DNA of 36,620 nt from positions 1 to 36,620 of the forward strand of contig CAIRNS010000025.1 of NCBI GenBank assembly GCA_903880015.1. The letters are read 5' to 3'. The position numbers and the translations under genes were made by a program. The notes under the pieces are model-generated. The model did not search any database. It saw nothing but the letters and a program-made list of their open reading frames with translations, and was not told the DNA's origin. Shown one piece after another: positions 525-18,927 of the stretch (the first letter of the stretch is position 1; the number at the start of each line of letters is the position of its first letter). The stretch is from an uncultured Elusimicrobia bacterium (GTDB lineage Bacteria; Elusimicrobiota; Endomicrobiia; Endomicrobiales; CAIRNS01).

Positions 525-582
525 TATAGACATAGTGAGTACAGCCATAGATAGTCAATATTGTAGCGAAAAGGTAACTATC

Positions 583-1416
583 GTGCATATCGTCGTGTGT
601 CTTAAACAAGTTCCGGATACAACGGAAGTGAAGATTGATAGAAAAACAAACACCCTTATCCGTGAGGGCGTTCCTTCTATTGCCAATCCGTTTGATTTAA
701 ACGCCGTTGAAGCTGCTCTTGTCCTCAAGGAAAAATACGGAGCAACAGTGACCGTGATTTCCATGGGGCCCCCTCAAGCAAAAGAAGCGTTGCGCAGAGC
801 CATAGCCATGGGTGCTGATCAGGCGATTTTGTTGTCAGACCGGTCTTTTGCCGGCGCCGATACGCTTGCGACCAGCTATACCTTGGCTCAGGCAATTTTG
901 AAATTGCAGGACGCCGGCGGGGTTGATCTTGTTCTGTGCGGAAAGCAAGCCATTGACGGCGATACGGCGCAGGTAGGTCCCGGCATAGCAACGCGGCTGA
1001 ACCTGACGCAGCTGACCTATGTGTCCAAAATAGAATCCGTAGACGCGGATGGAAAACATATTACTGTCGAAAGAAAACTTGAGAACGGCGTTGAAATCGT
1101 CCGTGGCAATTTGCCGGCGTTGTTGACCGTCGTCAAAGAGATATATAAGCCGCGGTATGCGTCACTGCCTTGTCTGATTGAGTCACTGGCATACGAGCCG
1201 GTGGTATGGAATGCCAAACAAATTTCAGCGGATAGTTCACAGATAGGTTTGGAAGGTTCTCCGACATGGGTTGAAACTATTTTTAGCCCGCCTCTGCGAG
1301 AAGGCGGCGTCATACTCAACCCCGGAGATGAAAATTATGACAAAGAATTTAGCGGGTTGATTGATACGGTCAAGAAAATAGTCGCTGAAGAAAGAAGTAA
1401 GCTAGTATGTTCTTGA
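583..1416 (+). CDS. fixA: electron transfer flavoprotein beta subunit, FixA/EtfB
   Basis: This is the 277-residue beta subunit of an electron-transferring flavoprotein. It pairs with the FixB homologue that follows and, in the FixABCX/EtfABCX family, carries the flavin at which NADH electrons are bifurcated. The N-terminus HIVVCLKQVPDTTEVKID and the block REGVPSIANPFDLNAVEAAL are typical of ETF-beta, as is the later GKQAIDGDTAQVGP segment. The start is the GTG at 583, preceded by an AAGG ribosome-binding site at 571-574. An in-frame GTG at 487 would add 32 residues without family similarity and would contain the sigma-54 promoter, so I reject it. First gene of the fixABCX operon. The bifurcating role is inferred from gene order and the partner subunits. 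Confidence 0.93.
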   Translation: MHIVVCLKQVPDTTEVKIDRKTNTLIREGVPSIANPFDLNAVEAALVLKEKYGATVTVISMGPPQAKEALRRAIAMGADQAILLSDRSFAGADTLATSYTLAQAILKLQDAGGVDLVLCGKQAIDGDTAQVGPGIATRLNLTQLTYVSKIESVDADGKHITVERKLENGVEIVRGNLPALLTVVKEIYKPRYASLPCLIESLAYEPVVWNAKQISADSSQIGLEGSPTWVETIFSPPLREGGVILNPGDENYDKEFSGLIDTVKKIVAEERSKLVCS

Positions 1417-1456
1417 AATATATAATTTTAAATAACCTCATAGGTAAGGCCACCGT

Positions 1457-2671
1457 ATGACGCCCATTGAAATAGCCGAAAAACTCTGCACGCTGTGCCA
1501 GGTATGTGTCAAAAAATGCCCTTTTGACGCGCTCAGCATGCAAGATGGCAAGATTGTTGTCAATGAAAAATGCACTGCGTGCGGCATTTGCGTCAGGACA
1601 TGTCCTGAAAAAGCAATGTCCTTGCGGAACCTCCCCAAAAAAGCAATAGCAAAAGATCTCAAAGATTATAAAGGGGTCTGGGTATTTATTGAGCATTCTG
1701 ACTGTAAAATAGCTTCGGTGTCTTTTGAATTGTTGGGCGAAGGCAGAAAACTGGCTGATAAGCTGGGGGTTGAACTCAGCGCCGTATTGCTTGGCGACGC
1801 AACGGAAAGAATGGCGGCAGAATCAGCATCTTACGGAGCGGATACGGTACTTGTAATGAACGATCCTCTGCTGAAGAATTATCGCACGCAGCCGTATCTT
1901 GCGGGCATTGTTCAGCTGGTGCAAAAATATAAACCCGAGATATTCTTGTTTGGAGCCACAACCATGGGCAGGGATCTTGCCGGCGCCGTGGCGACGAAAC
2001 TGAGAACCGGGCTTACCGCCGATTGTACCGCCCTCGACATTGAAGAACAAACGAAATTCCTCAAACAGACGCGGCCGGCTTTTGGCGGGAACATCATGGC
2101 TACGATTTTGACAAAAAATCACCGGCCGCAAATGGCGACGGTCAGACCACGGGTGATGAAAGCTCCCCTAAAAGATGCCGGGAAAAAAGCGGCAATAATT
2201 AATGAAACGATTGTTGTGTCGGCAGAACTCTTGCCTACAATGATAGTAGATTTTATTTTGCAGGCAGAACAGAATGCGCCCCTTGAAGACGCCCAGATTA
2301 TTGTGTCAGGTGGCAAGGGTATGGGTTCTGCGAAAAATTTTGACATGCTTCACGCCTTTGCCAGCGCAATCGGCGGGACGGTAGCGGGGTCCAGGAAGGC
2401 CTCTGAAGCGGGATGGATTTCTGCGGCAATGCAGGTGGGGCAGACGGGTCACACGGTCAGACCGAGGATATATTTCGCGTGCGGGATATCCGGGGCAATT
2501 CAGCATGTAGTCGGCATGCAGACATCAGATATTATTATTGCTATAAACAAGGATCCCCATGCGCCTATTTTTTCCGTGGCAAATTATGGAATTGTCGGAG
2601 ATGTCCTGAATATTATTCCGCAGATGACGAAGATTTTTAATGAGGGTTCGGGGAACAATGAATCGCATTGA
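1457..2671 (+). CDS. fixB: electron transfer flavoprotein alpha subunit with N-terminal ferredoxin domain, FixB/EtfA
   Basis: A 404-residue ETF alpha subunit. Residues 1-55 form a 2[4Fe-4S] ferredoxin domain (Cys 11, 14, 17, 21 and 39, 42, 45, 49, with CxxCxxCxxxCP spacing). Next comes the ETF-alpha N-terminal domain (from about residue 70, GVWVFIEH) and the FAD-binding C-terminal domain (about 280-400, with GGKGMG, SRKASEAGW, GQTGHTVRP and NKDPHAPIF). The ferredoxin extension is absent from classical nitrogen-fixer FixB but occurs in several anaerobic bifurcating ETFs, such as the caffeyl-CoA reductase-linked type. A GGTAAGG-like site lies before the ATG at 1457. The end overlaps fixC by 14 bases. 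The extra clusters probably form part of the low-potential exit path together with FixX (inference). Confidence 0.93.
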   Translation: MTPIEIAEKLCTLCQVCVKKCPFDALSMQDGKIVVNEKCTACGICVRTCPEKAMSLRNLPKKAIAKDLKDYKGVWVFIEHSDCKIASVSFELLGEGRKLADKLGVELSAVLLGDATERMAAESASYGADTVLVMNDPLLKNYRTQPYLAGIVQLVQKYKPEIFLFGATTMGRDLAGAVATKLRTGLTADCTALDIEEQTKFLKQTRPAFGGNIMATILTKNHRPQMATVRPRVMKAPLKDAGKKAAIINETIVVSAELLPTMIVDFILQAEQNAPLEDAQIIVSGGKGMGSAKNFDMLHAFASAIGGTVAGSRKASEAGWISAAMQVGQTGHTVRPRIYFACGISGAIQHVVGMQTSDIIIAINKDPHAPIFSVANYGIVGDVLNIIPQMTKIFNEGSGNNESH

Positions 2672-3956
2672 ATTTGATGTAGTCGTAGTCGGTGCTGGAC
2701 CGGCCGGCATAACTGCCGCGTATCTTTTAGCCAAAGAGGGGCTGAAAGTTGCCCTCATAGAGCGCGGAGAATTCCCCGGTGCCAAGAATGTCATGGGCGG
2801 GCAGTTTTACAGCTATCCGATGCGGGATATCATACCCGAGTTTTGGGAGGCAGCGCCCCTTGAACGCGCGGTATCCGAGAAACAACTGTGGCTGCTCTCG
2901 CGGGAATCAAAAATAGGGTTCTCCTACAAGAATCCACAGTTCGGCGCACCGCCGTACAATGCGTTTACCGTACTGCGCGCCAAGTTCGACCGTTGGTATG
3001 CGGAAAAAGCACGGCAAGCCGGGGTGGTCATAATCCCGGAAACGCTGGTGACCGGTATAATCAAAAAAGGGACTCAGGTAATCGGCGTAAAGACCGGTCG
3101 GGAAAACGGAGAGATATACGCTGATGTCGTGGTCGCAGCTGACGGAGTGAATTCATTGTTGTCAAAATATGCCGGTCTGCATGGCGAGATTGAGTCCCGC
3201 AATGTGGCGCTTGCCGTAAAAGAGATTATTGAATTGCCGCAGGGAGTCATTGAAGACAGGTTCCAGCTCGAAAAGGGCCAGGGTGTCACCATCGAGTTTA
3301 TGGGAGAGTTTCTCAAAGGGATGGTTGGGACCGGTTTCATATACACCAACAAAACTACCCTGTCGGTGGGTATAGGGTGTTTGCTTTCCGACTGGGTTGA
3401 TAACGGCGTGAGCCCCTATGATCTTATCGAGGACTTAAAGTCGCACCCCGTTGTCCGGCCACTCTTGCAAAAAGGGACTGTCAAAGAGTATTTGGCGCAT
3501 CTTATCCCCGAAGGAGGATACCGTTCCCTTCCGCCTCTCTATACGGACGGCATGCTGGTGACGGGTGACGCTGCTATGTTGGTAAACGGGCTCCATCAGG
3601 AAGGCTCCAACCTCGCGATTATGTCGGGAAAATTCGCTGCTGAAACCATACTTGAAGCGCGCAAAGCAGGCGATTATTCCGCACGGACGCTTGGGGCGTA
3701 TAAAAAGAAACTTGACGAGAGTTTCGTGATAAAAGATCTCAAAAAATACAGCAACGCCATGCCGCTGCTCGAGAACAATCGTCATTTCTTCAGCACATAT
3801 CCGCGGCTCTTAAGCGACGCCGCCGATGAATTCATCCGGGTTGACGGCGTGCCGAAGAAAAAGAAACAGCGCATGATTCTCAAGGGCATATTTAAACGGC
3901 GGGGCATTATCGGTATTATCAAGGACGCTCTCTCCGCGTGGAGGATAGTAAAGTGA
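2658..3956 (+). CDS. fixC: ETF:quinone oxidoreductase-type flavoprotein FixC
   Basis: A 432-residue FAD protein of the FixC/ETF-QO family. It takes ETF electrons and passes them to membrane quinone. The N-terminal Rossmann motif VVVVGAGPAGITAAYLL (about residues 8-24) is followed by ERGEFPGAKNVMGG, characteristic of FixC. A second FAD-contact segment, GDAAMLVNGLHQEGSNLAI, lies near residues 297-315. I place the start at the ATG at 2658, inside the end of fixB, because the conserved fold begins at once (MNRIEFDVVVVGAG); a GTG at 2640 would add six residues of no clear value. The fixX start overlaps the stop codon (GTGA). With FixX it forms the quinone-reducing branch of the complex. Confidence 0.93.
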   Translation: MNRIEFDVVVVGAGPAGITAAYLLAKEGLKVALIERGEFPGAKNVMGGQFYSYPMRDIIPEFWEAAPLERAVSEKQLWLLSRESKIGFSYKNPQFGAPPYNAFTVLRAKFDRWYAEKARQAGVVIIPETLVTGIIKKGTQVIGVKTGRENGEIYADVVVAADGVNSLLSKYAGLHGEIESRNVALAVKEIIELPQGVIEDRFQLEKGQGVTIEFMGEFLKGMVGTGFIYTNKTTLSVGIGCLLSDWVDNGVSPYDLIEDLKSHPVVRPLLQKGTVKEYLAHLIPEGGYRSLPPLYTDGMLVTGDAAMLVNGLHQEGSNLAIMSGKFAAETILEARKAGDYSARTLGAYKKKLDESFVIKDLKKYSNAMPLLENNRHFFSTYPRLLSDAADEFIRVDGVPKKKKQRMILKGIFKRRGIIGIIKDALSAWRIVK

Positions 3957-4228
3957 ATATAGACGATAAGCTTTTTCTGGACCGGTATGTGGTTGACGAC
4001 ACTCCCCACATCAAGATAATCGACAAAGAAGTCTGCAAAAAATGCGAAAAAAAGCAGTGTGTTTATACCTGCCCCGCCCAGTGCTATAAACTTGAGGATG
4101 GAGCGCTCAGTTTTTCTTACGAGGGGTGCCTTGAGTGCGGGACATGCAGGATAATATGTAATATCGATCACAATATCGATTGGAACTATCCGCGCGGTGG
4201 TTTCGGTATCTCCTATAAAAATGGATAA
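3953..4228 (+). CDS. fixX: ferredoxin-like protein FixX
   Basis: A 91-residue ferredoxin-like protein that partners FixC, equivalent to the iron-sulfur domain fused to ETF-QO in eukaryotes. Two cysteine groups are visible: Cys 28, 31, 36, 40 (CPAQC follows) and the cluster motif CLECGTCRIIC (Cys 59, 62, 65, 69). The C-terminus WNYPRGGFGISYKNG is a hallmark of FixX. The GTG at 3953 shares bases with the fixC stop (GTGA) and has GGAGGAT just upstream, so I prefer it to the GTG at 3938. Last gene of the fixABCX set; the gap to the kinase is about 100 bp. Confidence 0.92.
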   Translation: MNIDDKLFLDRYVVDDTPHIKIIDKEVCKKCEKKQCVYTCPAQCYKLEDGALSFSYEGCLECGTCRIICNIDHNIDWNYPRGGFGISYKNG

Positions 4229-5701: not shown

Positions 5702-6141
5702 GTCACAACGCGGTCAAAGTGCTTATAATCGAAGACGATCCTGATGTGGTCGAAGCAATGCGTATTATGCTTGAGGCAAAAGGATACGAAGTGTCTGCGG
5801 CTTTTGAGTATGAAGAAGGATTGAAAAAAACGAAAGACCTGCTGCCGAATATTATTCTGTTGGACGCAACTCTTATGCTTAACGACAGATCAGGATTGGA
5901 ACTTCCCGCCGCCATACGAAAAGATATCGCGACTTCGCATATCCCCATACTCATGATAACGGCGATAAATGAGGACTCTCCGGGATTTGAGTTCTCTCCC
6001 GGTGACAGAGACGAAAGATTACCTATAGATGATTTTATGAATAAACCTGCGCAGCCGGCAGAATTGTACCGGAAAATAGAAAACTTATTGAAAATGAAGG
6101 TGAGCAAATGGGCTCAATCGCCGGGGAAGCAGCCGTCATGA
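5698..6141 (+). CDS. receiver-only response regulator (CheY-like)
   Basis: A 147-residue stand-alone receiver domain with acidic residues EDD (12-14), phospho-acceptor Asp 56 (IILLDATLM), Thr 88 in PILMITAI and Lys 116 in NKPAQP. There is no DNA-binding or enzymatic output domain. The segment between the Thr and Lys strands is longer than usual and reads FSPGDRDERLPIDDF in place of the common GADDYxxKP pattern. The C-terminal tail KVSKWAQSP is shared with the second receiver at 21979. Its start overlaps the kinase stop (ATGA), so the two form a pair. The output could be a phosphorelay or protein-protein contact; a link to the sigma-54 activator at the window edge is possible but not shown. 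Confidence 0.9.
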   Translation: MSHNAVKVLIIEDDPDVVEAMRIMLEAKGYEVSAAFEYEEGLKKTKDLLPNIILLDATLMLNDRSGLELPAAIRKDIATSHIPILMITAINEDSPGFEFSPGDRDERLPIDDFMNKPAQPAELYRKIENLLKMKVSKWAQSPGKQPS

Positions 6142-7151
6142 CACTATCAGTCGCTGAAACAATTATGCATAAGGAAACATTGTATCTTCCCGTACAAAAA
6201 GAATTATCCGCGGTTGAAACCCTGCTGGAAAAGACCGTCCGTGAACAGTCGGGTTTTGAATACATTCTGGAGCTTGGCGGATATTCTCTCAATGCAAAAG
6301 GAAAACGCCTTCGCCCGTCATTGCTGCTGCTCTGTGCGCAGGCGGTGAATCCGGTTTCGCACGAAAAGGACAGTCAGGGCAGGATTCCCATTGCAGCTGC
6401 CGTTGAATTGATTCACATTGCTTCTCTGATTCATGATGATGTCATTGACCAATCGCCGATGCGTCACCGTCGGGAAACCGTTCATTCAAAGTGGGGCAAT
6501 GAAACGGCTATTGCGCTGGGCGATTATTTATATTCGGTTGCATTGAATATTTTGACCCCCTATGCCGGAAGCGATATCCTTCGCTGCATAAGCACTACAG
6601 TAAAAGAGATGAGTGAAGGTGAGCTCATACAGATTGTTGAGCGGAATAATCTTACCCTGGCGAAGGATCGATATCTTAAGATTATTGAGAAAAAGACCGC
6701 CGCCCTGTTTGCCGCTTCCTGTGAGCTCGCGGCACTGCTTGCACCCGATACAAAAAAATTCGCTCCAACGCTGAGAAGCTATGGGTACAATCTGGGGATG
6801 GCGTATCAGATAATCGATGATTACCAGGATCTTGCGGGCGATGCGGAGATTACCGGTAAGGCCCCGGGGCTGGATCTCAAAAGCGGCGAGCTGACGCTGC
6901 CACTGTTGAATCTGCTGTTGGTGTCGCCTGACAAGAACAATATATTGCGTTTGATTGCACAGCACGGCGATGAAAGTTCCTACAGCCAACTGCGTCAATA
7001 TTTTATTTCTTCGACGGCGCTAACTAAGACACGCGCAGAGGCAGTTTCATATGTGGCAAAGGCGCGCGCCAGTATAGAGGGCATTAACGATTCAATATAC
7101 AGACAAAGTCTGGTTGATTTTACCAATCGCTTGATTGAAAAAATGCAATGA
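6108..7151 (+). CDS. trans-polyprenyl diphosphate synthase (quinone side chain; DmkB/IspB/HepT-like)
   Basis: A 347-residue E-type polyprenyl synthase that extends farnesyl or geranylgeranyl diphosphate with isopentenyl diphosphate to make the quinone tail. It shows GGKRLRP-type GKRLRP (65-70), the first aspartate-rich motif DDVID (110-114) and the second DDYQD (237-241). The ATG at 6108 has AAGGTG about five bases upstream; an in-frame ATG at 6138 overlapping the previous stop (ATGA) is an equally plausible start and would remove ten residues. Product chain length cannot be read from the sequence. Sitting before NusG-II and Gx-transporter genes, it matches the position of dmkB in the Listeria EET locus, which supplies a dedicated demethylmenaquinone (family knowledge; equivalence here is inference). 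Confidence 0.9.
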   Translation: MGSIAGEAAVMTLSVAETIMHKETLYLPVQKELSAVETLLEKTVREQSGFEYILELGGYSLNAKGKRLRPSLLLLCAQAVNPVSHEKDSQGRIPIAAAVELIHIASLIHDDVIDQSPMRHRRETVHSKWGNETAIALGDYLYSVALNILTPYAGSDILRCISTTVKEMSEGELIQIVERNNLTLAKDRYLKIIEKKTAALFAASCELAALLAPDTKKFAPTLRSYGYNLGMAYQIIDDYQDLAGDAEITGKAPGLDLKSGELTLPLLNLLLVSPDKNNILRLIAQHGDESSYSQLRQYFISSTALTKTRAEAVSYVAKARASIEGINDSIYRQSLVDFTNRLIEKMQ

Positions 7152-7558
7152 GTCAACAGGGAATGCAAGAAGATGACGCTTTTTTCAGAACATCCCGGCT
7201 TGATATCGCGATAGTCGCTGTGGTGATAGTTTGTTCTTTGTCGTATATAGCTTGGAAAGCGTATGGCGGGCTTTCCCAGGACGGTCAAAAAAAAGAGGTC
7301 ATTGTGTATCAAAAGGAAACACTGATCGAGAAATTTCCTTTGGATAAGGACAGCAAGACACCTCTTTTAAACGGCCGAATGCAGCTTGAAATAGCCCAGG
7401 GCAGAGCAAGGATATTTTCCTCTGACTGCCCGCAAAACATTTGTGTTCACCTGGGATGGATTCATTACAGCGGGCAGAGTATTGTGTGTGTGCCTAATCA
7501 AATTACGGTTGAGATAAAGTCAGACGGTGTCCCGCTTTTGGACGGGGTAAGTTATTGA
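7148..7558 (+). CDS. NusG domain II-containing membrane-anchored protein (EetA-like)
   Basis: A 136-residue protein with one N-terminal membrane helix (about 18-36) and an exported NusG-II-like beta domain. The domain carries the typical CPxxxCVHxGWI pattern (CPQNICVHLGWIHYSGQ, about 96-112) and VCVPNQITVEI near the end. Despite its name, the family is not a transcription factor; these proteins are regularly encoded beside Gx-transporter, ApbE and FMN-binding genes. In Listeria the counterpart is EetA, needed for extracellular electron transfer, with molecular role unsettled. The ATG overlaps the stop of the polyprenyl synthase gene (ATGA). Conserved cysteines suggest a redox or metal role, but that is unproven. 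Confidence 0.85.
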   Translation: MSQQGMQEDDAFFRTSRLDIAIVAVVIVCSLSYIAWKAYGGLSQDGQKKEVIVYQKETLIEKFPLDKDSKTPLLNGRMQLEIAQGRARIFSSDCPQNICVHLGWIHYSGQSIVCVPNQITVEIKSDGVPLLDGVSY

Positions 7559-7604
7559 GAGAAGAGATCGGCAAGTTGTACGGCGGCATCAGGAAGAAAA
7601 AATA

Positions 7605-8828
7605 ATGGAAAATAAAGATCACCGGCAAGTGCATACCATAGCAGTGTTTGTGACGATTTCGTGCGTTTTGCAGATCGCCGAATCTCTCATTCCTCACCCC
7701 ATCCCCGGCCTGCGTCTGGGCCTGTCCAATGTGATGACGCTTATTGCCTTGGTGAATCTGGGATTCGGCTATGCAATGGAAATAGCGATCCTGCGCACAG
7801 TGGTGAGTTCCTTCATTCTGGGAACGTTCATGTCCCCCACCTTTTTTCTGAGCTTTTCCGGAGCCGTCGTGAGCACATTGATTATGGGGGCGCTGTACTG
7901 GCTCTCCTCTTTTAGCGTGCGGTACCGTTTAAGTATAGTCGGAATCAGTATTTTTGGTGCGCTTACTCACAACATCGTTCAATTGAGTTTAGCGTACTTT
8001 ATTTTGATTAAAAACACAGGCATATTTTCTTTCCTGCCATGGTTGTGCATCGGTGCGGTGATTATGGGATGGTTTACCGGTCTCGTTGCCGGCAATGTAT
8101 GCAGAAAAATAAAAGAAATCGCCCGCCTGAACGAAGAAAACGCGGGCTTGAACGCGCACGACGAACCGGTGCCGGATAATGCGACGCTGCCGGCGGCGCC
8201 GGACCATCGCCGTACGATTGTCGGACACGGTTTCCTCTCTTTCGTGCCTGCGGAAATTAAAATTATAGCGGTATCAGCGTTGGCGCTGGGCATATTCCTA
8301 TTCGCCGATTTCCGCATCTATGCGGGGATGTTCGCCGTGCTTGCCGTCATTATTGTACTATCAAAAATTTCTTTTGCTGCACTGATCAATGCGATACGCA
8401 CATATGCGTCTCTTGTCCTGCTGGCATTTTTGTTTCCGCTGGTGCTCAATCATGGGTCTCATATTGTTCTCTCCCTGGGGGTTTTTGATGTGACCGCCGA
8501 GGGGTTATCCGCCGGCGTATTGTACAGCATGAGGATTCTATTCTTAATTCTTGCAAACTCTTTATTGATGCTCACTACGACACAGCAGGATTTGACAAGG
8601 GGTTTGGCAAAAACAATTTCACCGCTTAAAATCTTCGGCGTTTCTCCGGAGAGAATCGCAGCTATACTTTCTCTTTCCTTGGTTTCGATCCCCTCATATA
8701 TGGAAGTTGCAAAAAAGATTCTTAAAGAATCCAATTTCAAACAAGTAAAAACCCTGTATGCCCTGATCCCGTTGCTCAGTGGCATTATAGTCGCGTTGTA
8801 CACGGACGCTGAACGGAAAAGCTTATAG
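7605..8828 (+). CDS. fusion of Gx-transporter (EetB-like / Hpre_diP_synt_I) and EcfT-like (CbiQ-type) membrane domains
   Basis: A 407-residue polytopic membrane protein made of two halves. Residues 1-170 match the Gx transporter family (old name heptaprenyl diphosphate synthase component I), with GLRLGLSNVMTLIAL as a signature; the fold resembles ECF S-components. A charged, proline-rich linker (about 171-215) leads to a CbiQ/EcfT-like half (about 216-407) containing LLMLTTTQQDLTRGLAKTIS and SLSLVSIPSYMEVAKKI. The Ala-Arg-Gly coupling motifs by which EcfT proteins grip their ATPases are not evident (AKKILKES and ALYTDAERKSL stand there). No ATPase gene is nearby. AGGAAG precedes the ATG. In Listeria the separate homologues are EetB and the EcfT-like FmnA, the latter moving flavin across the membrane; a flavin-export role here is inference. 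Confidence 0.82.
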   Translation: MENKDHRQVHTIAVFVTISCVLQIAESLIPHPIPGLRLGLSNVMTLIALVNLGFGYAMEIAILRTVVSSFILGTFMSPTFFLSFSGAVVSTLIMGALYWLSSFSVRYRLSIVGISIFGALTHNIVQLSLAYFILIKNTGIFSFLPWLCIGAVIMGWFTGLVAGNVCRKIKEIARLNEENAGLNAHDEPVPDNATLPAAPDHRRTIVGHGFLSFVPAEIKIIAVSALALGIFLFADFRIYAGMFAVLAVIIVLSKISFAALINAIRTYASLVLLAFLFPLVLNHGSHIVLSLGVFDVTAEGLSAGVLYSMRILFLILANSLLMLTTTQQDLTRGLAKTISPLKIFGVSPERIAAILSLSLVSIPSYMEVAKKILKESNFKQVKTLYALIPLLSGIIVALYTDAERKSL

Positions 8829-8904
8829 TATCCGAAACATAAGATGTTTTTAAGGGGGTGGTTCAATAGTCCCGTAGTACAAATTGAGACAAGGAGAATT
8901 AAAA

Positions 8905-10014
8905 ATGAAGTTGAAAAAAAACATTGTTTTGTCAGCCATTTTGTTGTTGACAGTCGCAGGGTTTGTCAGTGCAAGTGAAATTACCGGAGACAGCTTGAAA
9001 GAAACTTTGGGCGGCGTAAGCATCGGCGGACACATAAAGATGTACATGTATGACGGCACTGAAGGCACGCACAACGGCGTTAAGCAGCAGGATAACAGTT
9101 CTGCCGGCTTCGGCGGCCATGCTTTTTATCTCTATGTGGGTAAAGAGCTCGAGTCGTGGTTGAGATTGGATTCTCAGTTGGAGTACGAGTACACTGCCAG
9201 TGCAACTCCGAAGTTGGGTTCGGACATTACCCGTGGAGCTAATACTTCTGCGGCTACTGATCCCTTAGCTAAGACGACGGCAATCGCCCAGCTCTTTATG
9301 ACGGCTTCTCTGCCGCATGGCATTGAGATGAAAGTCGGTTCGTTCAATGCCATGTATTCCGAGTATTATGCGCGGGAAACCTGGTGGAGCGAGCAGTATC
9401 ATTTGAATCCAGGAATATGTTCATTGATAGCCCTGCACGATACGGGCATTGAATTGAATAAGAACTTCGAATTTACCGGAGTTTCGCTGCCGGTGTATTT
9501 GAGCCTTCTCAATGGACAGCAGGTCGCAGACAACAACAACGATAAAATGACATTGCTGCATGTCGCTCCTGAGTTCTTCCATTCAGCATTGAAGATCATG
9601 GGATCGTACGGCGTTGGCAAATATGACGCTGCCGATAAATATACTGCGACCAGAACTTTGATCGGCGCCGAGTATAAAATAGCGCAGGTCAGACTCAGCA
9701 GCGAATATTCAACCCTTACATCGCAAGACAAGATTGCCGTGGGAAAAGATGCCGTCAATCAAGGGTACTATGTGCAGGGAATGTATGTGTTTAACGATAT
9801 GTGGCGCGCCGGCATTAATAACAGCCATGCGGACAATGAAGCCGTTGCAACATACCGCGAAGTATGGGACACGAACACCTTGCTGCTTGACTGCTTCTTG
9901 ACTCCCAGCTCAAGCATCATCGGACAGTATACGATGGCGGAAGGCAATAGAACTAACGGTTCAGACAAAGTAAAGTATAATCGCTTTACTCTCGGCTGGC
10001 GGACAACATTCTAA
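8905..10014 (+). CDS. outer-membrane porin-like beta-barrel protein
   Basis: A 369-residue exported protein. The start at 8905 follows a strong AAGGAG (8891-8896) and gives a clean signal peptide (KLKK, then a hydrophobic run, cleavage near FVSAS). The mature part has alternating polar and hydrophobic strands rich in Tyr, Gly and Trp, without membrane helices, and ends in FTLGWRTTF. The C-terminal Phe in an alternating pattern is the BamA-recognised signal of outer-membrane beta-barrels. The length suits a barrel of about 16 strands. No specific porin family is recognised. It lies between the EcfT-fusion and apbE genes, which suggests that solute, flavin or electron-carrier passage through the outer membrane belongs to the same process (inference). 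Confidence 0.82.
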   Translation: MKLKKNIVLSAILLLTVAGFVSASEITGDSLKETLGGVSIGGHIKMYMYDGTEGTHNGVKQQDNSSAGFGGHAFYLYVGKELESWLRLDSQLEYEYTASATPKLGSDITRGANTSAATDPLAKTTAIAQLFMTASLPHGIEMKVGSFNAMYSEYYARETWWSEQYHLNPGICSLIALHDTGIELNKNFEFTGVSLPVYLSLLNGQQVADNNNDKMTLLHVAPEFFHSALKIMGSYGVGKYDAADKYTATRTLIGAEYKIAQVRLSSEYSTLTSQDKIAVGKDAVNQGYYVQGMYVFNDMWRAGINNSHADNEAVATYREVWDTNTLLLDCFLTPSSSIIGQYTMAEGNRTNGSDKVKYNRFTLGWRTTF

Positions 10015-10044
10015 TTGCGTAAGATAATAAGATAAAACGGGGAA

Positions 10045-10077
10045 GGGAAGCGGCTATGGAAAACATAGCCGCTTCCC
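10045..10077 (+). promoter_or_regulatory. perfect 14-bp hairpin between porin and apbE genes
   Basis: Bases 10045-10058 pair perfectly with 10064-10077 around a GAAAA loop. No T-run follows on the + strand, so it is not a standard intrinsic terminator. It lies 30 bp after the porin stop and 20 bp before the apbE start, a position suited to protecting the upstream mRNA end or lowering downstream expression, so that the abundant porin and the enzyme are made at different levels (inference). Confidence 0.6.
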
Positions 10078-10097
10078 CCAACCAGAAATGACCGCGC

Positions 10098-11102
10098 ATG
10101 TTTTTGCTTAAAAAATTAAAAATCATATCCTTTATCCTCGCCGCGCTGCTGATTGCTTCGTTCGCGGTGAGAAATTATAATATCCGTCACAACCGCATGG
10201 AAGAAAGAAAGCGGTTCATGATGGATACTTTTGTCATGATAAAGGCCGCCGGACCGTCAAAAAAAGCTATTAAGGCGATTGAAGATGCCCTGGACCGGAT
10301 GCAGGAAATCGATGTAAAAATGAATCCCATGAATCCTGCAAGCCCCTTGTATGCGTTTAACGAAAAAGGGACGCCTATTGATGACCCTGAGATCGTTTTG
10401 CTCGTTCAAAAAGGTCTTGAGATCAGCAAGCTCTCCGGCGGAGCGTTTGATATGACGCTTCTTCCCCTGACAAAATTGTGGGGGTTTAGCGGAAAAGCGC
10501 CGCATCTGCCCGCGGACCGGGACATACAAGACGCTCTTGCCAAAACAGGATACAAATATCTGGTGGTCAAAGACGGAAAAGTTAAAAAATTGAGGCCCTA
10601 TATTCAAATTGACTTCGGCGGCATTGCAAAAGGATACGCCGTGGGCGAAGCAGTTAAAATCCTAAAGCGCGAGGGCATAACTTCAGCCATGATAGATGCC
10701 GGCGGAGACATCTTTGCCGTGGGTAAAAGCGGCGGGAAAAAGTTATGGAAAATCGGCGTTAAGTCGCCCCGAGATGAAGGCATTGTGGGCTATGTAGAGC
10801 TTACCGAGAAGTCGATAGCATGTTCAGGAGATTATGAAAGATATTTTATCAAAGACGGCAAACGCTATCATCATATTTTTAACGCAAAAACCGGCTACCC
10901 CGCGGATGGCGGTTTGCTCAGCGCTTCCATCATTTACCATGATTGCACGATGACCGATGTGTGGACGAAAGTGCTCTTTGTCCTCGGTCCCGAAAAAGGC
11001 ATGGAGCTCGTAAAGAAGAATCCGGGCATGGAAGCGATAATGGTTACCAAGGATAATAAGGTGCTTTATTTTGGAACGGAAAATATGCTTAAAAAAATAT
11101 AA
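10098..11102 (+). CDS. apbE: FAD:protein FMN transferase ApbE (FmnB-like)
   Basis: A 334-residue exported flavinyl transferase. It moves FMN from FAD, with Mg2+, onto a threonine of a target protein. An N-terminal membrane anchor (about 9-25, no lipobox Cys) places it on the outer face of the inner membrane. Family blocks are visible: MDTFVMI (start of domain), DFGGIAKGYA (172-181), MIDAGGDIFAVG (DAGGD 200-204), SGDYERYF, HHIFNAKTGYP (258-268) and a D-x-x-T metal and catalytic region (Asp 287, Thr 290). The next gene encodes a secreted protein with a flavinylation site, its likely substrate. The ribosome-binding site is weak, and the strong hairpin just upstream may tune expression. Confidence 0.95.
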   Translation: MFLLKKLKIISFILAALLIASFAVRNYNIRHNRMEERKRFMMDTFVMIKAAGPSKKAIKAIEDALDRMQEIDVKMNPMNPASPLYAFNEKGTPIDDPEIVLLVQKGLEISKLSGGAFDMTLLPLTKLWGFSGKAPHLPADRDIQDALAKTGYKYLVVKDGKVKKLRPYIQIDFGGIAKGYAVGEAVKILKREGITSAMIDAGGDIFAVGKSGGKKLWKIGVKSPRDEGIVGYVELTEKSIACSGDYERYFIKDGKRYHHIFNAKTGYPADGGLLSASIIYHDCTMTDVWTKVLFVLGPEKGMELVKKNPGMEAIMVTKDNKVLYFGTENMLKKI

Positions 11103-11142
11103 ATCATGGGGGTTTGCCTCCATAAAGAAAAGGAGTAGGAAA

Positions 11143-11727
11143 ATGTTTAAAAAAAGCATGTTGCTGGCAGTGTGTTGCGGGATTATGGTTGTTGCGGTTG
11201 AACAAAGTTTCGCCATTCGTCTTTTGACGAAAGAAGAAGCGATAAAAGGTGTTTTCGGACCGGGTGCCGTCGTTGTTGTTGAAACCAAGCAGTTAAAAGA
11301 ATCCCATCTTGCTAAAGTTACTGAAAGAATGGGCGGAAGCTTGGTAAGCGCGCAAAAAGGATCGAAATCAAGTGAAGTCGCGGCCAAGACCAGTTACGAT
11401 TTTATCTTCTCGATGAAAGACGGAAAAAAAGATAAAGTAGCCATTATTGACGAAGAACCCGGCAAATGGGGCCCCGTAGAGTTTATCGTTGCGATGGACT
11501 TAAAAGGCGCAATCACCCGAGTGGATGTTCTGAGCTATCAGGAAAAAAGAGGCCAGCCCATTGCCCGTCATAGTTTTATGAGCCAGTTTGAAGGAAAATC
11601 GAGCAAAGACAAGATTATGGTCAACAAAGACATCAACGGCGTGAGCGGCGCTACCATTTCTTCCAATTGCGCGACATTTGCCGTCAGAAAAGCAATCGCA
11701 CTGTACGAGGAACTGTATCTCAAATAG
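11143..11727 (+). CDS. secreted FMN-binding domain protein (covalent flavoprotein, NqrC/RnfG/PplA-type domain)
   Basis: A 194-residue exported protein. AGGAG at 11131-11135 fixes the start at 11143, giving a signal peptide ending near QSFA (residues 21-24). The C-terminal half is an FMN_bind domain, with GPVEFIVAMDLKGAITRVDVL and the modification motif GVSGATISS, in which Thr 171 (bases 11653-11655) should carry FMN through a phosphoester bond placed by ApbE. Unlike NqrC or RnfG it is encoded without Nqr or Rnf subunits. It is therefore likely a free or loosely attached electron carrier outside the inner membrane, as proposed for PplA in Listeria. No lipobox Cys follows the signal peptide. 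The family and site are clear; the electron partners are not. Confidence 0.92.
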   Translation: MFKKSMLLAVCCGIMVVAVEQSFAIRLLTKEEAIKGVFGPGAVVVVETKQLKESHLAKVTERMGGSLVSAQKGSKSSEVAAKTSYDFIFSMKDGKKDKVAIIDEEPGKWGPVEFIVAMDLKGAITRVDVLSYQEKRGQPIARHSFMSQFEGKSSKDKIMVNKDINGVSGATISSNCATFAVRKAIALYEELYLK

Positions 11728-11821
11728 AATGGTCAGAAATGCAGTATTGTTGCGGCGGACATTATTTCGCTGCGCGTAATAAGCGTCCCCCCGGCGAGAT
11801 GCGACACTCAGGAGGAAGTAT

Positions 11822-12292
11822 ATGGAAAATTTTAGATTGTCGAAGGCTCCGGTAAGTTTAAAGATATTTATGACCGTTTTGCTGTGTATGCTGGGACTCA
11901 TTTACTTATCATTGCTGTTGCATATTTGGCAGGATACTCAGATGAAGCCGGCGCTGGTTGCCCAGGGATACGCTTCCATGGAAACATTGGAGCTTGCCGA
12001 CCATACGCACAAGTATTTGCCGTACTATGTTATTTATCTTTTTGCGATTCCCACCGGACTTTTCATGTTGACATCTTTTCCTGAAAAAGTTAAGCGGGTA
12101 CTGGCTGTCCTGCCTTTTGTATTAATCGGTATTGATGTTACTTCTATGTGGCTGATACCGTATCTCTCAAAAATGCTGTTTGCCTGGGTGTTGTGGTTTG
12201 CCGGGTCGTTTCTGTCAATGACCTTTTTTGTCCTGTTTGTATTAAATCTTTATGATGTCTGGCTGAGAAAAAACACGGCTTCTGTGCAATAA
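11822..12292 (+). CDS. small four-helix membrane protein of unknown function
   Basis: A 156-residue protein with four predicted membrane helices (about 14-34, 67-83, 91-112, 117-143). Between helices 1 and 2 it has an exposed stretch with ADHTHKYLP; there is also a His near the end of helix 1 (LLLHIWQD). A third-helix segment GIDVTSMWLIPY carries Asp and Trp in a hydrophobic setting. I recall similar short four-helix proteins near cytochrome and extracellular electron transfer genes in metal-reducing bacteria, sometimes misnamed elongation factor-1 alpha, but cannot confirm homology. The histidines could bind heme. AGGAGG lies before the ATG. Being last in the flavin cluster and just ahead of nuoA, it may link the flavoprotein to the quinone pool (inference). 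Confidence 0.75.
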   Translation: MENFRLSKAPVSLKIFMTVLLCMLGLIYLSLLLHIWQDTQMKPALVAQGYASMETLELADHTHKYLPYYVIYLFAIPTGLFMLTSFPEKVKRVLAVLPFVLIGIDVTSMWLIPYLSKMLFAWVLWFAGSFLSMTFFVLFVLNLYDVWLRKNTASVQ

Positions 12293-12360: not shown

Positions 12361-12708
12361 ATTTATCACTATATTTTTGTCTTTATCGTCGCGGGGATAG
12401 GATTCGTCATTGCTCCCTTTATCATGTCCTATCTTATTGCGCCCGATAAACCCAGCAAAGAAAAACTTTCAACATACGAATGCGGCGAACCCCCGGTGGG
12501 GTTTGCCTGGGTTCAGTACAATGTGAGATATTATATTTTTGTTCTCATGTTCCTGATTTTCGATGTTGAAACTATTTTTCTGTTCCCCTGGGCGGTGTCT
12601 TTCCGGGACATCGGCATGATAGCGCTGACTGAGATGTTTGTGTTTCTTTCGATCCTTCTGCTGGGTCTCGCCTATGCGTGGAGGAAAGGAGCTTTGGAAT
12701 GGTCTTAG
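12361..12708 (+). CDS. nuoA: NADH-quinone oxidoreductase subunit A (NuoA), non-canonical ATT start
   Basis: A 115-residue three-helix membrane subunit of complex I. The conserved core [11 protein letters not shown] and [18 protein letters not shown] is clear. The first ATG in frame (12424) would delete the first membrane helix and has no ribosome-binding site. The frame stays open upstream to 12319 but contains no ATG, GTG or TTG. AGGAG at 12350-12354 lies six bases before ATT at 12361, and starting there restores a full first helix ([19 protein letters not shown]). ATC at 12358 is an alternative. So either a rare near-cognate start is used or the assembly has an error. The spacer before it holds TAAAAT at 12321-12326 but no convincing -35 box. 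The end overlaps nuoB by 10 bases. Confidence 0.85.
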
Positions 12709-13199
12709 AAAAGCTCCCGATATACCTTGAGAAAATCCCGGGTGGTCAAATCGTCATAACCGATTATAACAATCTATTGAGCTGGTCCAGAAAAAACTCT
12801 CTGTGGCCGCTGACATTCGGCCTTGCCTGTTGTGCCATAGAGATGATGGCGGCGGGCGCGTCCCGCTACGACTGGTCGCGGTTTGGTTTTGAAGTTGCGC
12901 GGGCAACGCCCCGTCAGGCGGATTTGATGATAGTGGCGGGGACGGTCACTGAAAAGATGGAGAAAAGGATTAAACTTTTGTGGCAGCAGATGCCGGAACC
13001 GAAATATGTGATATCCATGGGAAATTGCGCCAACACCGGCGGACCATTCTATTATGATTCCTACACGGTGGTTAAAGGCGTTGACACGATTATTCCGGTT
13101 GATGTATATGTGCCCGGCTGCCCGCCGCGTCCGGAAGGTTTGTTGTTCGGGATGATAGAGTTACAGAAAAAAATAATGGCACAGAAAAAACCCCTATGA
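12699..13199 (+). CDS. nuoB: NADH-quinone oxidoreductase subunit B (NuoB)
   Basis: A 166-residue subunit that holds the terminal [4Fe-4S] cluster N2, which passes electrons to quinone. The ligands are visible: the tandem Cys 44-45 in [11 protein letters not shown], Cys 110 in [10 protein letters not shown] and Cys 141 in [29 protein letters not shown] is the usual conserved block. The start at 12699 follows AAGGAG (12686-12691); a GTG at 12678 would add seven residues overlapping nuoA further. The stop shares bases with nuoC (ATGA). Nothing in the protein departs from the family. Confidence 0.97.
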
Positions 13200-13657
13200 C
13201 TACGCAAGAAATAATTAGAAAAATCAGCGGTAGGTTCCCTACAGTTGAAACGACTATCATTGATGGAGAGAATGCATTGAATGTCCTGACAGATAAGGAC
13301 GCGATAGTGCAGCTGTGTGCGTTTATCAAAAATGAGTTGGGATATGATTATCTGCAATTTTTAACCTGCATCGACCGGTTGGACAAACTTGAAATTCACT
13401 ATCACCTGTATGCATATGCAAGCCAGGGGACAATCATAGTCAAGACAAGCGTTGAACGCGTCGGGGGAAAAATTCAATCCGTGGCAGCCTTGTGGAAAGC
13501 CGCTGACTGGCATGAACGGGAAGCATATGACCTGTTCGGGGTTGTTTTTGAAGGACATCCGGGACTAAGGCGCATATTGTTGGAAGAAGATTTCGTGGGA
13601 CATCCGCTTTTGAAAGATTTTAAAGGAAAGAATGTAGTTGTGTTACCGAAAATATGA
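13196..13657 (+). CDS. nuoC: NADH-quinone oxidoreductase subunit C (NuoC, 30 kDa)
   Basis: A 153-residue peripheral-arm subunit, separate from NuoD rather than fused as in E. coli. The signature [18 protein letters not shown] and [18 protein letters not shown] sit in the last third. It helps join the peripheral arm to NuoD and NuoI. It is translationally coupled to both neighbours by ATGA overlaps. The protein is compact and lacks the long C-terminal extension of some homologues. Confidence 0.96.
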
Positions 13658-14772
13658 AAGAAGATTCAGCACAAGATTTTATTACTGAAGAGTATTTATT
13701 AAACATGGGCCCGCAGCATCCGGCCACGCATGGCGTTCTGCGCTTGGTTTTGCGCATGGACGGGGAAAATATTCTTGATCTCGTTCCTGACTTGGGTTAT
13801 CTTCACCGCGGTTTTGAGAAGATTGCCGAGAATAGAACCTATAAGCAGTTTCTTCCTTTTACCGACCGGCTTGATTATCTTGCCGGAATGTTTAACAACC
13901 ATGTCTATTGCCTGGCTGTTGAGAAACTGCTTAAAATAACTGTTCCTCCGCGCGCAGAATACATCAGGGTTCTGGTATCGGAATTAAACAGGATAGCCAG
14001 TCATCTCGTCTGGTTTGGCCCGTTTGCCATGGACTTGGGAGCCATAACCCCGTTTTTATACGCTTTCAGGGAACGCGAGATGATTATAGACCTGCTTGAA
14101 TCGGTTTCCGGGCAGAGGTTAACCTACAGTTATTTCAGAATAGGCGGCGTCGCCCAGGACCTTCCGGATGATTTTATAGTTCAGGCAAAAGCGTTTTGCG
14201 AATATTTCAAACCAAAAGTAGATGAGTACGATACATTGTTAAGCAAGAATATTATTTTCATAAAACGGACAAAAAATATAGGTGTTCTGCCCAAGGAATT
14301 GGCAATTGACTATGGATGCAGCGGGCCTGTTCTCCGTGGTTCGGGCGTTGCGTACGATGTCAGAAAAAATGAGCCATACAGCGTTTACAAAGACCTTTCA
14401 TTCGATATCCCCGTCGGGACCATCGGAGATTCACTGGACAGATACAATGTCAGGATTGAAGAGATGAGACAATCCGTCAGGATAATCGAGCAGGTGCTTG
14501 AAAAACTTCCCGGCGGAGAGATTATGGCTGCGGTGCCGAAGGTCGTCAAACCCGCGCCGGGCGAGGCCTACGCACGCATAGAAGCTCCTCGCGGAGATTT
14601 CGGTTTTTTTATCGTCAGCGACGGTTCGGATAAACCCTACCGCTTGAAAATTCGCGCGCCGTCATTTTCAAACCTTTCCGTACTGCCCGAACTGGTAAAA
14701 GGGCTAAAAATAAGCGATGTGCTGGCTGTTTTCGGCAGTATTGACATTGTTTTGGGGGATGTGGACAGATGA
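13654..14772 (+). CDS. nuoD: NADH-quinone oxidoreductase subunit D (NuoD, 49 kDa)
   Basis: A 372-residue hydrogenase-large-subunit-like protein that shapes the quinone site beside Nuo[16 protein letters not shown] (His 22 and His 26) is the quinone-binding loop. Further conserved blocks are [42 protein letters not shown] and [16 protein letters not shown]. No Ni-binding cysteines are present, as expected for NuoD rather than a hydrogenase. ATGA overlaps at both ends. No nuoE, nuoF or nuoG follows; nuoH begins at once. Confidence 0.97.
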
Positions 14773-15833
14773 TCACCGTATGCGTTTCCTATATGTTCAA
14801 TTTAGTGTCGTTGTTTGACCTTATTTCAAATCTTCTGCTGAATGTGTGGATGAACATAGGGTTGCCCGTCATACTCTTTGAACTTATCAAAAAATTTGTG
14901 GTCGCGGGCGTTATGTTCGGTCTGCTCTCCGTTACGGTCATGTTTCTCATCTGGTTGGAACGGAGAATTTGCGCCCGCTTCCAGTCAAGAGTTGGTCCCA
15001 ATCGCGTCGGTTTTCAGGGATTCTTGCAGCCGGTGGCGGATGCGATTAAACTGCTTGCCAAAGAAAATATCGTTCCTCAAGACGCTGACCGGCTGGTCCA
15101 TTTTCTGGCTCCGCCCATTGTTTTTACGGCAGCTTTTACGGCGTACCTGTGTATGCCCTTTGGTCCGGGGCTGATTGCTTTGGATATCAACCTCGGCATT
15201 CTGTATATTTTTTCCATTACCACGCTGGGAGTTATGGGGATCCTGCTGGCCGGCTGGGGTTCTAATAATAAATATTCTTTGTTGGGCGGCATGCGCTCTG
15301 TGGCTCAAATTGTCAGCTATGAGATACCGCTCATTTTATCGGTATTGGGTGTTGTCATGCTGACAAATACGCTGAAAATAACTGAAATTGTAGATGCGCA
15401 AAAAAGCTTTTTTGATTGGTTTATATTCAGACAGCCGCTGGCTTTCATCATTTATCTCATTGCGGGTACGGCGGAATTAAACCGCACTCCTTTTGATATT
15501 CCGGAAGCGGAAAGCGAATTGACCGGCGGATATCATACTGAATACTCAGGCATTCGGTTTTCAATGTTCTTTTTGGCGGAATTCACCAACATGTTCATGG
15601 TCTCCGCTATCGCGACAAGTATCTTTTTGGGCGGGTGGCACGGATTCGGATTTTTACCTCCCTATGTATGGTTTTTTGTAAAATGTTTTGCGGTGGTTTT
15701 TCTTTTGATTTGGTTCAGGTGGACATTCCCGCGGATGCGGTTCGACCAGTTAATGGATTTAGGTTGGAAAGCGCTAACCCCGTTGGCATTCGTCAATATT
15801 TTTCTGACGGGTATAATGATTTTCATTAAGTGA
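14769..15833 (+). CDS. nuoH: NADH-quinone oxidoreductase subunit H (NuoH)
   Basis: A 354-residue membrane subunit that joins the peripheral and membrane arms and forms the quinone chamber. Recognisable blocks are WLERRICARFQSRVGPNRVGFQGFLQPVADAIK-like sequence at about 63-95, then the loop GTAELNRTPFDIPEAESELT with its acidic residues (about 233-252) and YHTEYSGIRFSMFFLAEF. About eight membrane helices are expected. The ATG overlaps the nuoD stop (ATGA). It directly follows nuoD, confirming that the NADH-module genes are absent from this operon. Confidence 0.97.
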   Translation: MITVCVSYMFNLVSLFDLISNLLLNVWMNIGLPVILFELIKKFVVAGVMFGLLSVTVMFLIWLERRICARFQSRVGPNRVGFQGFLQPVADAIKLLAKENIVPQDADRLVHFLAPPIVFTAAFTAYLCMPFGPGLIALDINLGILYIFSITTLGVMGILLAGWGSNNKYSLLGGMRSVAQIVSYEIPLILSVLGVVMLTNTLKITEIVDAQKSFFDWFIFRQPLAFIIYLIAGTAELNRTPFDIPEAESELTGGYHTEYSGIRFSMFFLAEFTNMFMVSAIATSIFLGGWHGFGFLPPYVWFFVKCFAVVFLLIWFRWTFPRMRFDQLMDLGWKALTPLAFVNIFLTGIMIFIK

Positions 15834-15843
15834 GAATAATCTT

Positions 15844-16266
15844 ATGATATTAAAATTTGCGGCAACCATTTATAACGGCGTGATGAGTCTTCCCCAGGGA
15901 ATGATGGTGACCCTGAAATATTTTTTAAAAAAGCCGGTTACCATGCAGTATCCTGACCAGAAATGGGTCATGCCGGCACGATACCGCGGCGTGGTTTCAC
16001 TGATATTCGATAAAAACACGGGCAAACATCGCTGCATTGCCTGCAAAAACTGCGTCAAAATCTGTCCGAACTATTCGCTGGCGATAGAAACAGCTGTTGG
16101 CGAGGATAAAAAATGGTTCCCGAAAACCTTTACTCTCGAACTGGGGCAGTGCATGTTCTGCGGGTTGTGCGTTGAGATTTGTCCCACCAAGGCATTGGAA
16201 ATGAACAAAGAATATGAGCTTGCAACATATACCCGGGAAGAATTGACGAGGTCGCTGCTGCCATGA
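15844..16266 (+). CDS. nuoI: NADH-quinone oxidoreductase subunit I (NuoI)
   Basis: A 140-residue ferredoxin-like subunit that carries clusters N6a and N6b between the input module and NuoB. Two CxxCxxCxxxCP motifs are seen: Cys 64, 67, 70, 74 and Cys 103, 106, 109, 113. An N-terminal amphipathic segment (GMMVTLKYFLKKPVTMQYP) matches the family. Because nuoEFG are missing, this is the first cluster-bearing subunit facing the electron donor and a likely docking site for ferredoxin, as in other 11-subunit complexes (inference). Its end overlaps nuoJ (ATGA). Confidence 0.96.
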   Translation: MILKFAATIYNGVMSLPQGMMVTLKYFLKKPVTMQYPDQKWVMPARYRGVVSLIFDKNTGKHRCIACKNCVKICPNYSLAIETAVGEDKKWFPKTFTLELGQCMFCGLCVEICPTKALEMNKEYELATYTREELTRSLLP

Positions 16267-16760
16267 TAGATATGTATCTGCTGTATTTCCTTATGATTTT
16301 TGCTGCGGTCTCTGCCGTGGGCGTGGTAACATTTAGGAATATATTTCACGGCGCCATTTGTCTGGGAGCCATGCTTTTGGGCATTGCGGGGATATATTTG
16401 ATCATGGGCGCTGAGTTCGTTTTTGCCGTACAGGTCCTGGTCTATGTCGGGGGAATTCTTACGCTGATATTATTCGCCATCATGCTTACCAGTAAAATCG
16501 CCGACAGATCAATCCTGCAGGCCAACGAACAAAAAACGGTATCTTTCCTGATAAGCGCCATCACGCTTTTTGTCCTGATTTACGCGATAGTGAAGACGCC
16601 TTTTACAACCGTGCAGGGGCCTTTTATCGTTGTCGACACCGCGCGCATCGGGAAGTCATTGTTTTTAAACAACATATTGCCGTTTGAAGTTATTTCTATT
16701 CTTCTCTTGGCGGCGCTGGTGGGGGCAATAGTGCTTGCGCGCAAGGATATCAAAAAATGA
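16263..16760 (+). CDS. nuoJ: NADH-quinone oxidoreductase subunit J (NuoJ)
   Basis: A 165-residue membrane subunit with five predicted helices. The helix-3 region AEFVFAVQVLVYVGGILTLILFAIML contains the pi-bulge segment typical of NuoJ that takes part in proton transfer. The C-terminus has LLLAALVGAIVLARKDIKK. It is joined to nuoI and nuoK by ATGA overlaps. Length and features are normal for the family. Confidence 0.94.
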   Translation: MIDMYLLYFLMIFAAVSAVGVVTFRNIFHGAICLGAMLLGIAGIYLIMGAEFVFAVQVLVYVGGILTLILFAIMLTSKIADRSILQANEQKTVSFLISAITLFVLIYAIVKTPFTTVQGPFIVVDTARIGKSLFLNNILPFEVISILLLAALVGAIVLARKDIKK

Positions 16761-17065
16761 TCGCTATTCAAGAACTGCTTATTTTCAACAGCGTTATTTT
16801 CGCGATCGGAATATACGGGGCTCTTACCCGTAGGAATACCATCGGGATTTTGATGTCCATCGAACTGATATTCAACAGCGCATGCTTAAACTTCATTGTT
16901 TTCGGAAAATATCTGTACCCCTCGCTTCTCTCGGGGGATATATTTGTCTTGTTTATTATAACCGTTGCCGCGGCGGAGGTGGCTGTTGCGCTGGCGTTGT
17001 TGCTGTGTATTTACAGAAATTCAAAAAATATATTTATTGAAAAAATCAGTTTGATGAGGGGTTGA
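16757..17065 (+). CDS. nuoK: NADH-quinone oxidoreductase subunit K (NuoK)
   Basis: A 102-residue, three-helix membrane subunit of the proton-translocating arm, related to MrpC. It shows the family blocks GALTRRNTIGILMSIELIFN, with the conserved membrane glutamate in helix 2, and VAAAEVAVALALL with the glutamate of helix 3. The ATG overlaps the nuoJ stop, and nuoL begins one base after its own stop. There is nothing unusual in the protein. Confidence 0.95.
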   Translation: MIAIQELLIFNSVIFAIGIYGALTRRNTIGILMSIELIFNSACLNFIVFGKYLYPSLLSGDIFVLFIITVAAAEVAVALALLLCIYRNSKNIFIEKISLMRG

Positions 17066-17066
17066 A

Positions 17067-18902: not shown

Positions 18903-18927
18903 CGGACTTCAGGAGCAGGCAATAACT

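Follow-up and report, generated by a model that had tools for sequence, protein, structure and literature searches.

Bacteria with a single membrane are known to export electrons by flavin-based systems; how might such a system work behind an outer membrane? The question is raised by a 36,620-nucleotide stretch of DNA from an uncultured, anaerobic Elusimicrobia bacterium (assembly GCA_903880015.1, contig CAIRNS010000025.1; hereafter the window), in which genes for a secreted flavin mononucleotide (FMN)-binding protein, the flavin transferase ApbE, an outer-membrane porin and a four-helix membrane protein (4TM) are grouped with relatives of the Listeria extracellular electron transfer (EET) genes. 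A sequence-only reading had interpreted seven genes at 6108-12292 (polyprenyl diphosphate synthase, NusG_II protein, EetB-EcfT fusion, porin, ApbE, FMN-binding protein and 4TM) as a Listeria-type EET module rebuilt in a diderm. Open reading frames (ORFs) and Pfam matches confirmed that all seven lie on the + strand in this order, within a longer block that runs in one direction from 487 to 21935.

We propose, with a probability of about one in two, that the cassette encodes a flavin reductase of the periplasm that is linked to quinol and serves as an electron outlet, its porin admitting small acceptors. The EetB-CbiQ fusion protein would move flavin adenine dinucleotide (FAD) out of the cytoplasm, and ApbE would use the exported FAD to attach FMN to Thr171 of the FMN-binding protein, which is secreted (hereafter the carrier). 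FixABCX and a ferredoxin-type complex I, encoded in the same block, would feed quinol, from which 4TM would take electrons at the periplasmic face and reduce the flavinylated carrier. The carrier would then reduce small oxidants, for instance ferric chelates or free flavins, that diffuse in through the dedicated porin, and the purpose would be respiratory rather than assimilatory. We favor such a respiratory outlet because the gene order is conserved, the carriers form a branch of their own with motifs of their own, and 4TM is paired with a carrier; furthermore, because no other quinol oxidase was found in the host genome, the cassette of one relative (G067) lies amid respiratory genes, and FAD export by EetB has been published.

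The cassette is conserved in three families

We searched a sample of the phylum comprising 295 genomes for the porin and EetB (290 for the 4TM profile search). The porin was found in six other genomes, five of which (G067, G134, G204, G221 and G241) carry the genes for NusG_II, EetB-CbiQ, porin, ApbE and FMN-binding protein in the window's order, while the sixth (G063) has a weak porin match (E 2e-6) and no cassette neighbors. Two further genomes of family f16 (G300 and G306) also carry the cassette. In total, the order NusG_II-EetB/CbiQ-(4TM)-porin-ApbE-FMN-binding protein is shared by eight genomes of three families, i.e., the window's and seven from two other families, and the check set beforehand, that the neighborhood be conserved in relatives, was borne out. 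EetB alone occurs more widely: 19 of the 295 genomes encode it, the five with the cassette among them. Identity to the window genes is 36-54% in G067 and 28-43% in G204, and a histidine kinase adjoins the cassette in seven of the eight loci.

In a tree of the FMN-binding proteins, a 100/99 branch separates the eight EetB-type rows, plus just two very long ones, from the carriers of other cassettes. The motifs PGKWG and EKRGxP are present in all eight EetB-type carriers versus none of 33 others. Judged by these sequences, the window cassette is a distinct EetA/EetB-linked type. The G067 version adds a second barrel, a UbiA prenyltransferase and an NqrF-like protein (NADH dehydrogenase), and after it come genes for a 4Fe-4S protein, NrfD and a molybdopterin oxidoreductase. 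The UbiA/NqrF-like genes stand on one side of this cassette and a respiratory set resembling PsrABC on the other; this locus is the nearest to the Listeria gene list. We did not find the porin-FMN-binding protein-ApbE-4TM cassette described in the openly accessible literature, a search outside which most subscription papers lie.

4TM is a constant partner of the carrier

The porin and the small membrane protein had been regarded as additions to a Listeria set from which Ndh2 is missing. Ndh2 is indeed absent, but 4TM (11822..12292, +; four transmembrane helices modeled, with a predicted local distance difference test score (pLDDT) of 74) is by all sequence indications a constant partner of the FMN-binding protein, forming with it a conserved pair, and not an accessory gene. 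The profile search recovered the 4TM family in 26 of the 290 genomes, including the window's, and in 24 of them the gene of an FMN-binding protein lies within 2.4 kb on the same contig (at most 150 bases away in 20). Among the EetB-type cassettes, 4TM is present in six of the seven other genomes; in each of the six f16 loci a homolog, 23-26% identical to the window copy, separates EetB from the porin. In the two remaining genomes of the profile search, and in G294, which was found by a single-sequence search, a protein with one c-haem site stands beside 4TM. Thus, in all 27 genomes found to carry 4TM, the carrier alongside is either an FMN-binding protein (24) or a haem-c protein (3). It follows that haem may replace flavin as the partner of 4TM, suggesting that the two are interchangeable in the carrier role.

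The single-haem c proteins flanking 4TM are encoded at L077:1655-2452, L090:1-768 and L104:333-1295; the one of L077 (G294) is joined to an FMN_bind-like region devoid of a flavin site.

Examining 4TM itself, we noted an HTH motif (H-x-H) where helix 2 meets the periplasm, and within it a single invariant histidine, His63. In sister cassettes the 4TM slot is filled by a PepSY_TM protein or by a cytochrome-b-like four-helix protein of another histidine pattern. Such replacements, together with the carrier that always accompanies 4TM, fit the role of a membrane electron donor, and we infer that 4TM reduces the periplasmic carrier, with quinol as the most likely source of electrons.

The flavin carrier and its flavin supply

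The carrier (11143..11727, +; PF04205 FMN_bind, 48 bits) has a cleavable Sec signal, no lipobox, a single FMN_bind domain and no surface anchor. Counting from the ATG at 11143, the expected flavin acceptor is Thr171 of an SGAT site, as had been read from the sequence, and G169-A170-T171 is invariant in the alignment of its relatives. ApbE itself (10098..11102, +; PF02424, 278 bits), which bears an N-terminal membrane anchor and is 51% identical in G067, is encoded next to it. The carrier therefore has what defines an ApbE-flavinylated protein, i.e., an FMN_bind domain with a [S/T]GA[S/T] site and a neighboring cognate ApbE, and Thr171 is the predicted site of flavinylation by this enzyme.

We also considered whether the carrier could be an orphan or remnant of Rnf or Nqr. 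A search of its profile against the sequences of the PDB matched RnfG only. A Pfam search of the host genome (1.81 Mb, 99.9% complete) recovered a single FMN_bind copy, which is this secreted, soluble protein; it is therefore no Nqr/Rnf leftover, a conclusion reached from FMN_bind, other Rnf/Nqr subunits not having been searched for. The tree likewise disfavors such an origin, grouping the carrier with porin-linked relatives.

As to the flavin supply, EetB (PF07456, ECF-S like; 7605..8828, +) is fused to an EcfT/CbiQ domain in a single ORF (Hpre_diP_synt_I, 131.9 bits; CbiQ, 46.6 bits), in agreement with the transporter fusion recognized earlier. The adjoining gene, next to EetB in all eight cassette genomes, encodes a membrane-anchored NusG_II protein of the EetA family (7148..7558, +; PF07009, 86.7 bits). 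EetB is known as an FAD-binding ECF-S subunit and a general FAD exporter serving many ApbE systems, EetB-ECF-T fusions exist, and eetB colocalizes with apbE in 2,169 genomes, most often alongside Rnf and EET systems (PMC9973259). The fusion protein is accordingly predicted to export the FAD that feeds ApbE.

Of note, the host genome encodes a second EetB-CbiQ fusion (L053:9653-10837, contig C7), 3' of uvrB- and nadC-like genes and with no ApbE nearby.

A dedicated porin, and what may cross it

The porin gene (8905..10014, +) is better started at the ATG at 8905 than at 8884. Its product has a signal peptide and a C-terminal phenylalanine and belongs to no Pfam family. The beta-barrel proposed from the sequence was recovered in the AlphaFold model, which shows 16-17 strands (mean pLDDT 69) and gave 235 Foldseek matches at E<=1e-3, solved 16-strand porins such as MOMP, OmpT, PorB and OprP among them. 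By profile, the porin is homologous to the cassette barrels of other families (hhalign 93%, E 3e-7); its profile had no match in a PDB sequence search, nor did a porin search against plasmids return any.

This structure bears on whether electrons leave the cell altogether. In true EET, electrons would cross the outer membrane via the porin on the flavinylated carrier itself, or on flavin shuttles that the cassette machinery exports, and reach minerals or electrodes. The overlap with the Listeria gene list, greater still in G067, speaks for this scenario, as does a claim of flavin-based EET, made from gene content, in the diderm phylum Ca. Effluviviacota (PMC11323493). Nevertheless, the porin resembles ordinary diffusion porins, and the carrier, secreted by a plain Sec signal, has nothing to hold it at the surface. 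A 16-strand diffusion porin fold is too narrow for a folded carrier of 20 kDa. In addition, Ndh2 is missing from the window cluster, and CXXCH sites in the host genome (124 versus 93 for the reversed pattern) are not clearly enriched and include no multihaem cluster among the matches listed, although multihaem cytochromes are not fully excluded by this count. We thus consider true EET improbable. Of the route envisaged by the sequence-only reading, an exit of electrons from the quinone pool by way of a flavinylated carrier in the periplasm, served by a dedicated porin, is supported by the conserved cassette, the quinone and complex I genes of the block and the absence of another recognized quinol oxidase; the passage of electrons across the outer membrane is supported by no result.

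A further scenario makes the porin itself the substrate of ApbE. In all eight EetB-type porins, a loop (residues 98-105 of the window porin) carries the motif [SG]A[TS]P.[LI]G, with a threonine/serine swap at the would-be acceptor. Were this loop flavinylated, carrier and porin would together form a haem-free flavin conduit across the outer membrane, like the porin-cytochrome complexes. A barrel-type precedent is a DUF3570 protein, which has two [S/T]GA[S/T] sites and was found experimentally to be flavinylated (PMC8238504). However, the loop resembles the ApbE site in a non-canonical form, reading ASAT in the window, and it comes after strand 3, where it probably faces outward. Classification of the porin as a DUF3570 protein was itself rejected, since hhalign gave a probability of 2.7%. 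We therefore give this flavin conduit very little credence.

The gene block and its electron supply

The block begins with electron-bifurcating genes of the FixABCX type (487..4228, +), which comprise the electron transfer flavoprotein (ETF) beta subunit (487-1416; Pfam ETF, 154 bits for the ETF block), an ETF alpha subunit with a ferredoxin domain (1457-2671), a FixC-like quinone oxidoreductase (2640-3956; NCBIfam FixC, 343 bits, and a Pfam ETFQO_UQ-bd match) and the ferredoxin FixX (3938-4228; NCBIfam, 75 bits). These are followed on the same strand by a histidine kinase with a 6-TM sensor (4307-5701; Pfam 6TM_PilS, HisKA and HATPase_c; 54% identical in G067), a single-domain receiver (5698-6141; Pfam Response_reg) and the polyprenyl diphosphate synthase (6108..7151; Pfam polyprenyl_synt, 219 bits), which has a homolog at the same place in G067 and would make a quinone side chain, a DmkB-like role. 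Downstream of 4TM lie eleven complex I genes (12424..21935, +), nuoA, B, C, D, H, I, J, K, L, M and N, of which nuoA-H were assigned by ORF order and translations and the others by order and size. The genes nuoE, F and G are lacking from this set, and NuoE/NuoF-like matches elsewhere in the genome belong to a [FeFe]-hydrogenase HydABC set. A complex I devoid of NuoEFG suggests that its donor is ferredoxin or another compound.

Between the porin and ApbE genes, the transcript would form a very stable hairpin (10040..10085, +; -33.6 kcal/mol, z -5.6), which has no U-run and no Rfam match and perhaps sets porin expression above that of the other cassette genes. An Rfam search recovered neither an FMN riboswitch nor any other element in the window.

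To what else the quinol might pass electrons was assessed across the host genome. A composite query gave no match there for CydA, CyoB, a molybdopterin oxidoreductase or NrfD; as a control, every missing type was matched in one or more relatives of realistic divergence. FrdB was not found with a second composite query, and the FrdA-like match proved by sequence and length to be L-aspartate oxidase (NadB).

Two other redox loci of the host genome were noted. L116:5835-10987 (contig C20) holds a second flavinylation system, comprising a DsbD-like protein, Rrf2, ApbE, a DUF3570 protein with SGAS and TGAT sites, thioredoxin and a DUF4266 lipoprotein, i.e., the gene set of the published DsbD/DUF3570 system (PMC8238504). 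L084 (contig C1:91000-97500) appears, by eye from the translations, to encode a membrane-bound [NiFe]-hydrogenase-like complex beside HydB/HydG-like proteins.

Iron-linked relatives and the case for assimilation

The main rival to a respiratory outlet is assimilatory ferric reduction, in which the carrier would reduce porin-admitted Fe(III) for import as Fe(II), and the quinone and complex I genes would only supply electrons. Fur stands beside the sister cassette in 14 loci, and in family f18 the order is Fur, barrel, FMN-binding protein, PepSY, ApbE and FeoB, with a DtxR/FeoA-type gene next in the locus examined. Flavinylation clusters linked to PepSY, MsrQ and P19 have been interpreted as iron-assimilation reductases (PMC8238504), and the Fur/FeoB-linked relatives do, by sequence, look like reductive iron uptake. 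Moreover, these are the nearest wider relatives of the porin, carrier and 4TM combined, which weakens EET as a reading of the locus and sets iron assimilation in competition with it. The window shares with them a homologous carrier and membrane partner, as established by profile searches and the tree, and its host encodes FeoB (588 aa) and a Fur-like protein. Yet both of the latter lie on contigs other than the cassette's, and neither Fur nor FeoB is near any of the eight EetB-type loci; a two-component system is found there instead, and in the window and G067 the neighbors of the cassette are respiratory. Iron assimilation by the window cassette is in our view possible, if rather unlikely.

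Several observations weigh against the quinol-linked respiratory outlet that we prefer. The commonest form of the cassette across the phylum consists of ApbE, barrel, FMN-binding protein and 4TM, often with Fur adjacent, and Fur adjoins the majority of the wider relatives of the porin-carrier-4TM set. 4TM has no Pfam match and no structural match among PDB folds, and beyond H-x-H no cofactor site was recognized in it. The Ala-Arg-Gly coupling motif was not found in the T domain fused to EetB. Lastly, among menaquinone routes in the host, PF02621 (the MqnA/D family) is absent and the MenB and MenD queries were silent, the latter a weak result given that MenD was matched convincingly in no genome. 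With the known menaquinone pathways not found, the quinone itself is uncertain. UbiA is encoded on another contig (in G067 it lies inside the cluster), and a DmkB-like gene in the window locus; with just UbiA and the polyprenyl synthase found, the host may import its quinone or synthesize it by an unrecognized route.

Some wider loci deserve mention. A c-di-GMP-I riboswitch lies at L105:12656-12784, 3' of a Fur/FeoB-linked cassette. In two gammaproteobacterial loci (L005:8465-10495 and L007:8449-10495), ApbE, NusG_II and EetB follow one another in surroundings that look unrelated.

Comparison with known systems

Flavinylation surveys describe systems of the PepSY, MsrQ and DsbD/DUF3570 types, with a porin unmentioned in their main text (PMC8238504, PMC11334425). 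The PepSY-like and MsrQ-like systems share with the window ApbE, a flavinylated periplasmic protein and a small membrane electron donor, but this donor is of another family and a porin is unmentioned in the text (Meheust 2021, PMC8238504). The DUF3570/DUF4266/DsbD system shares ApbE and a barrel-type substrate, yet is thioredoxin-linked and, by profile, not homologous to the window porin (PMC8238504). Closer in content are plasmid clusters of Bradyrhizobium, Ideonella and Methylocystis, in which barrel, FMN-binding protein, ApbE and a four-helix protein stand side by side; all four roles are shared, but the four-helix protein has another histidine pattern (with a weak cytochrome b561 match), and EetA and EetB are lacking. 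The Fur/FeoB-linked cassettes of the same phylum, with 4TM or PepSY, share the homologous carrier, the 4TM-type partner and the porin (profile 93%); they differ in having Fur adjacent and, in one family, FeoB, in lacking EetA/EetB, and in a carrier without PGKWG and EKRGxP. Two uses of one cassette are thereby separated, one iron-linked (Fur, FeoB) and the other quinone/EetB-linked.

Finally, the Listeria monocytogenes EET locus (dmkB, eetA, eetB, fmnA, fmnB, pplA, ndh2) shares with the window a polyprenyl synthase, NusG_II (EetA), EetB, an EcfT-like domain (FmnA-type, here the CbiQ domain fused to EetB), ApbE (FmnB) and an FMN_bind protein in one block. PplA is a surface lipoprotein with two FMN_bind domains. 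In its place, the window has a soluble single-domain carrier; its host is a diderm, EetB and EcfT are fused, and porin, 4TM, kinase/receiver, FixABCX and complex I are added. No Ndh2 was recognized among the annotated window ORFs at 487-21935, and G067 has the NqrF-like protein instead. The operational definition of EET demands this membrane type II NADH dehydrogenase in the cluster (PMC8238504), EetB is a general exporter, and deletion of eetA left EET unaffected (PMC9973259), so the label 'Listeria-type EET' does not apply. Carrier, ApbE, dedicated porin and Pfam-less four-helix partner nonetheless provide a search signature across diderms, and a concrete answer to how such a system could operate behind an outer membrane. 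Taken together, the window locus is not the Listeria EET locus by definition, lacking two of its defining traits (Ndh2 and the architecture of PplA), but a good candidate for a flavin-based electron outlet of a diderm.

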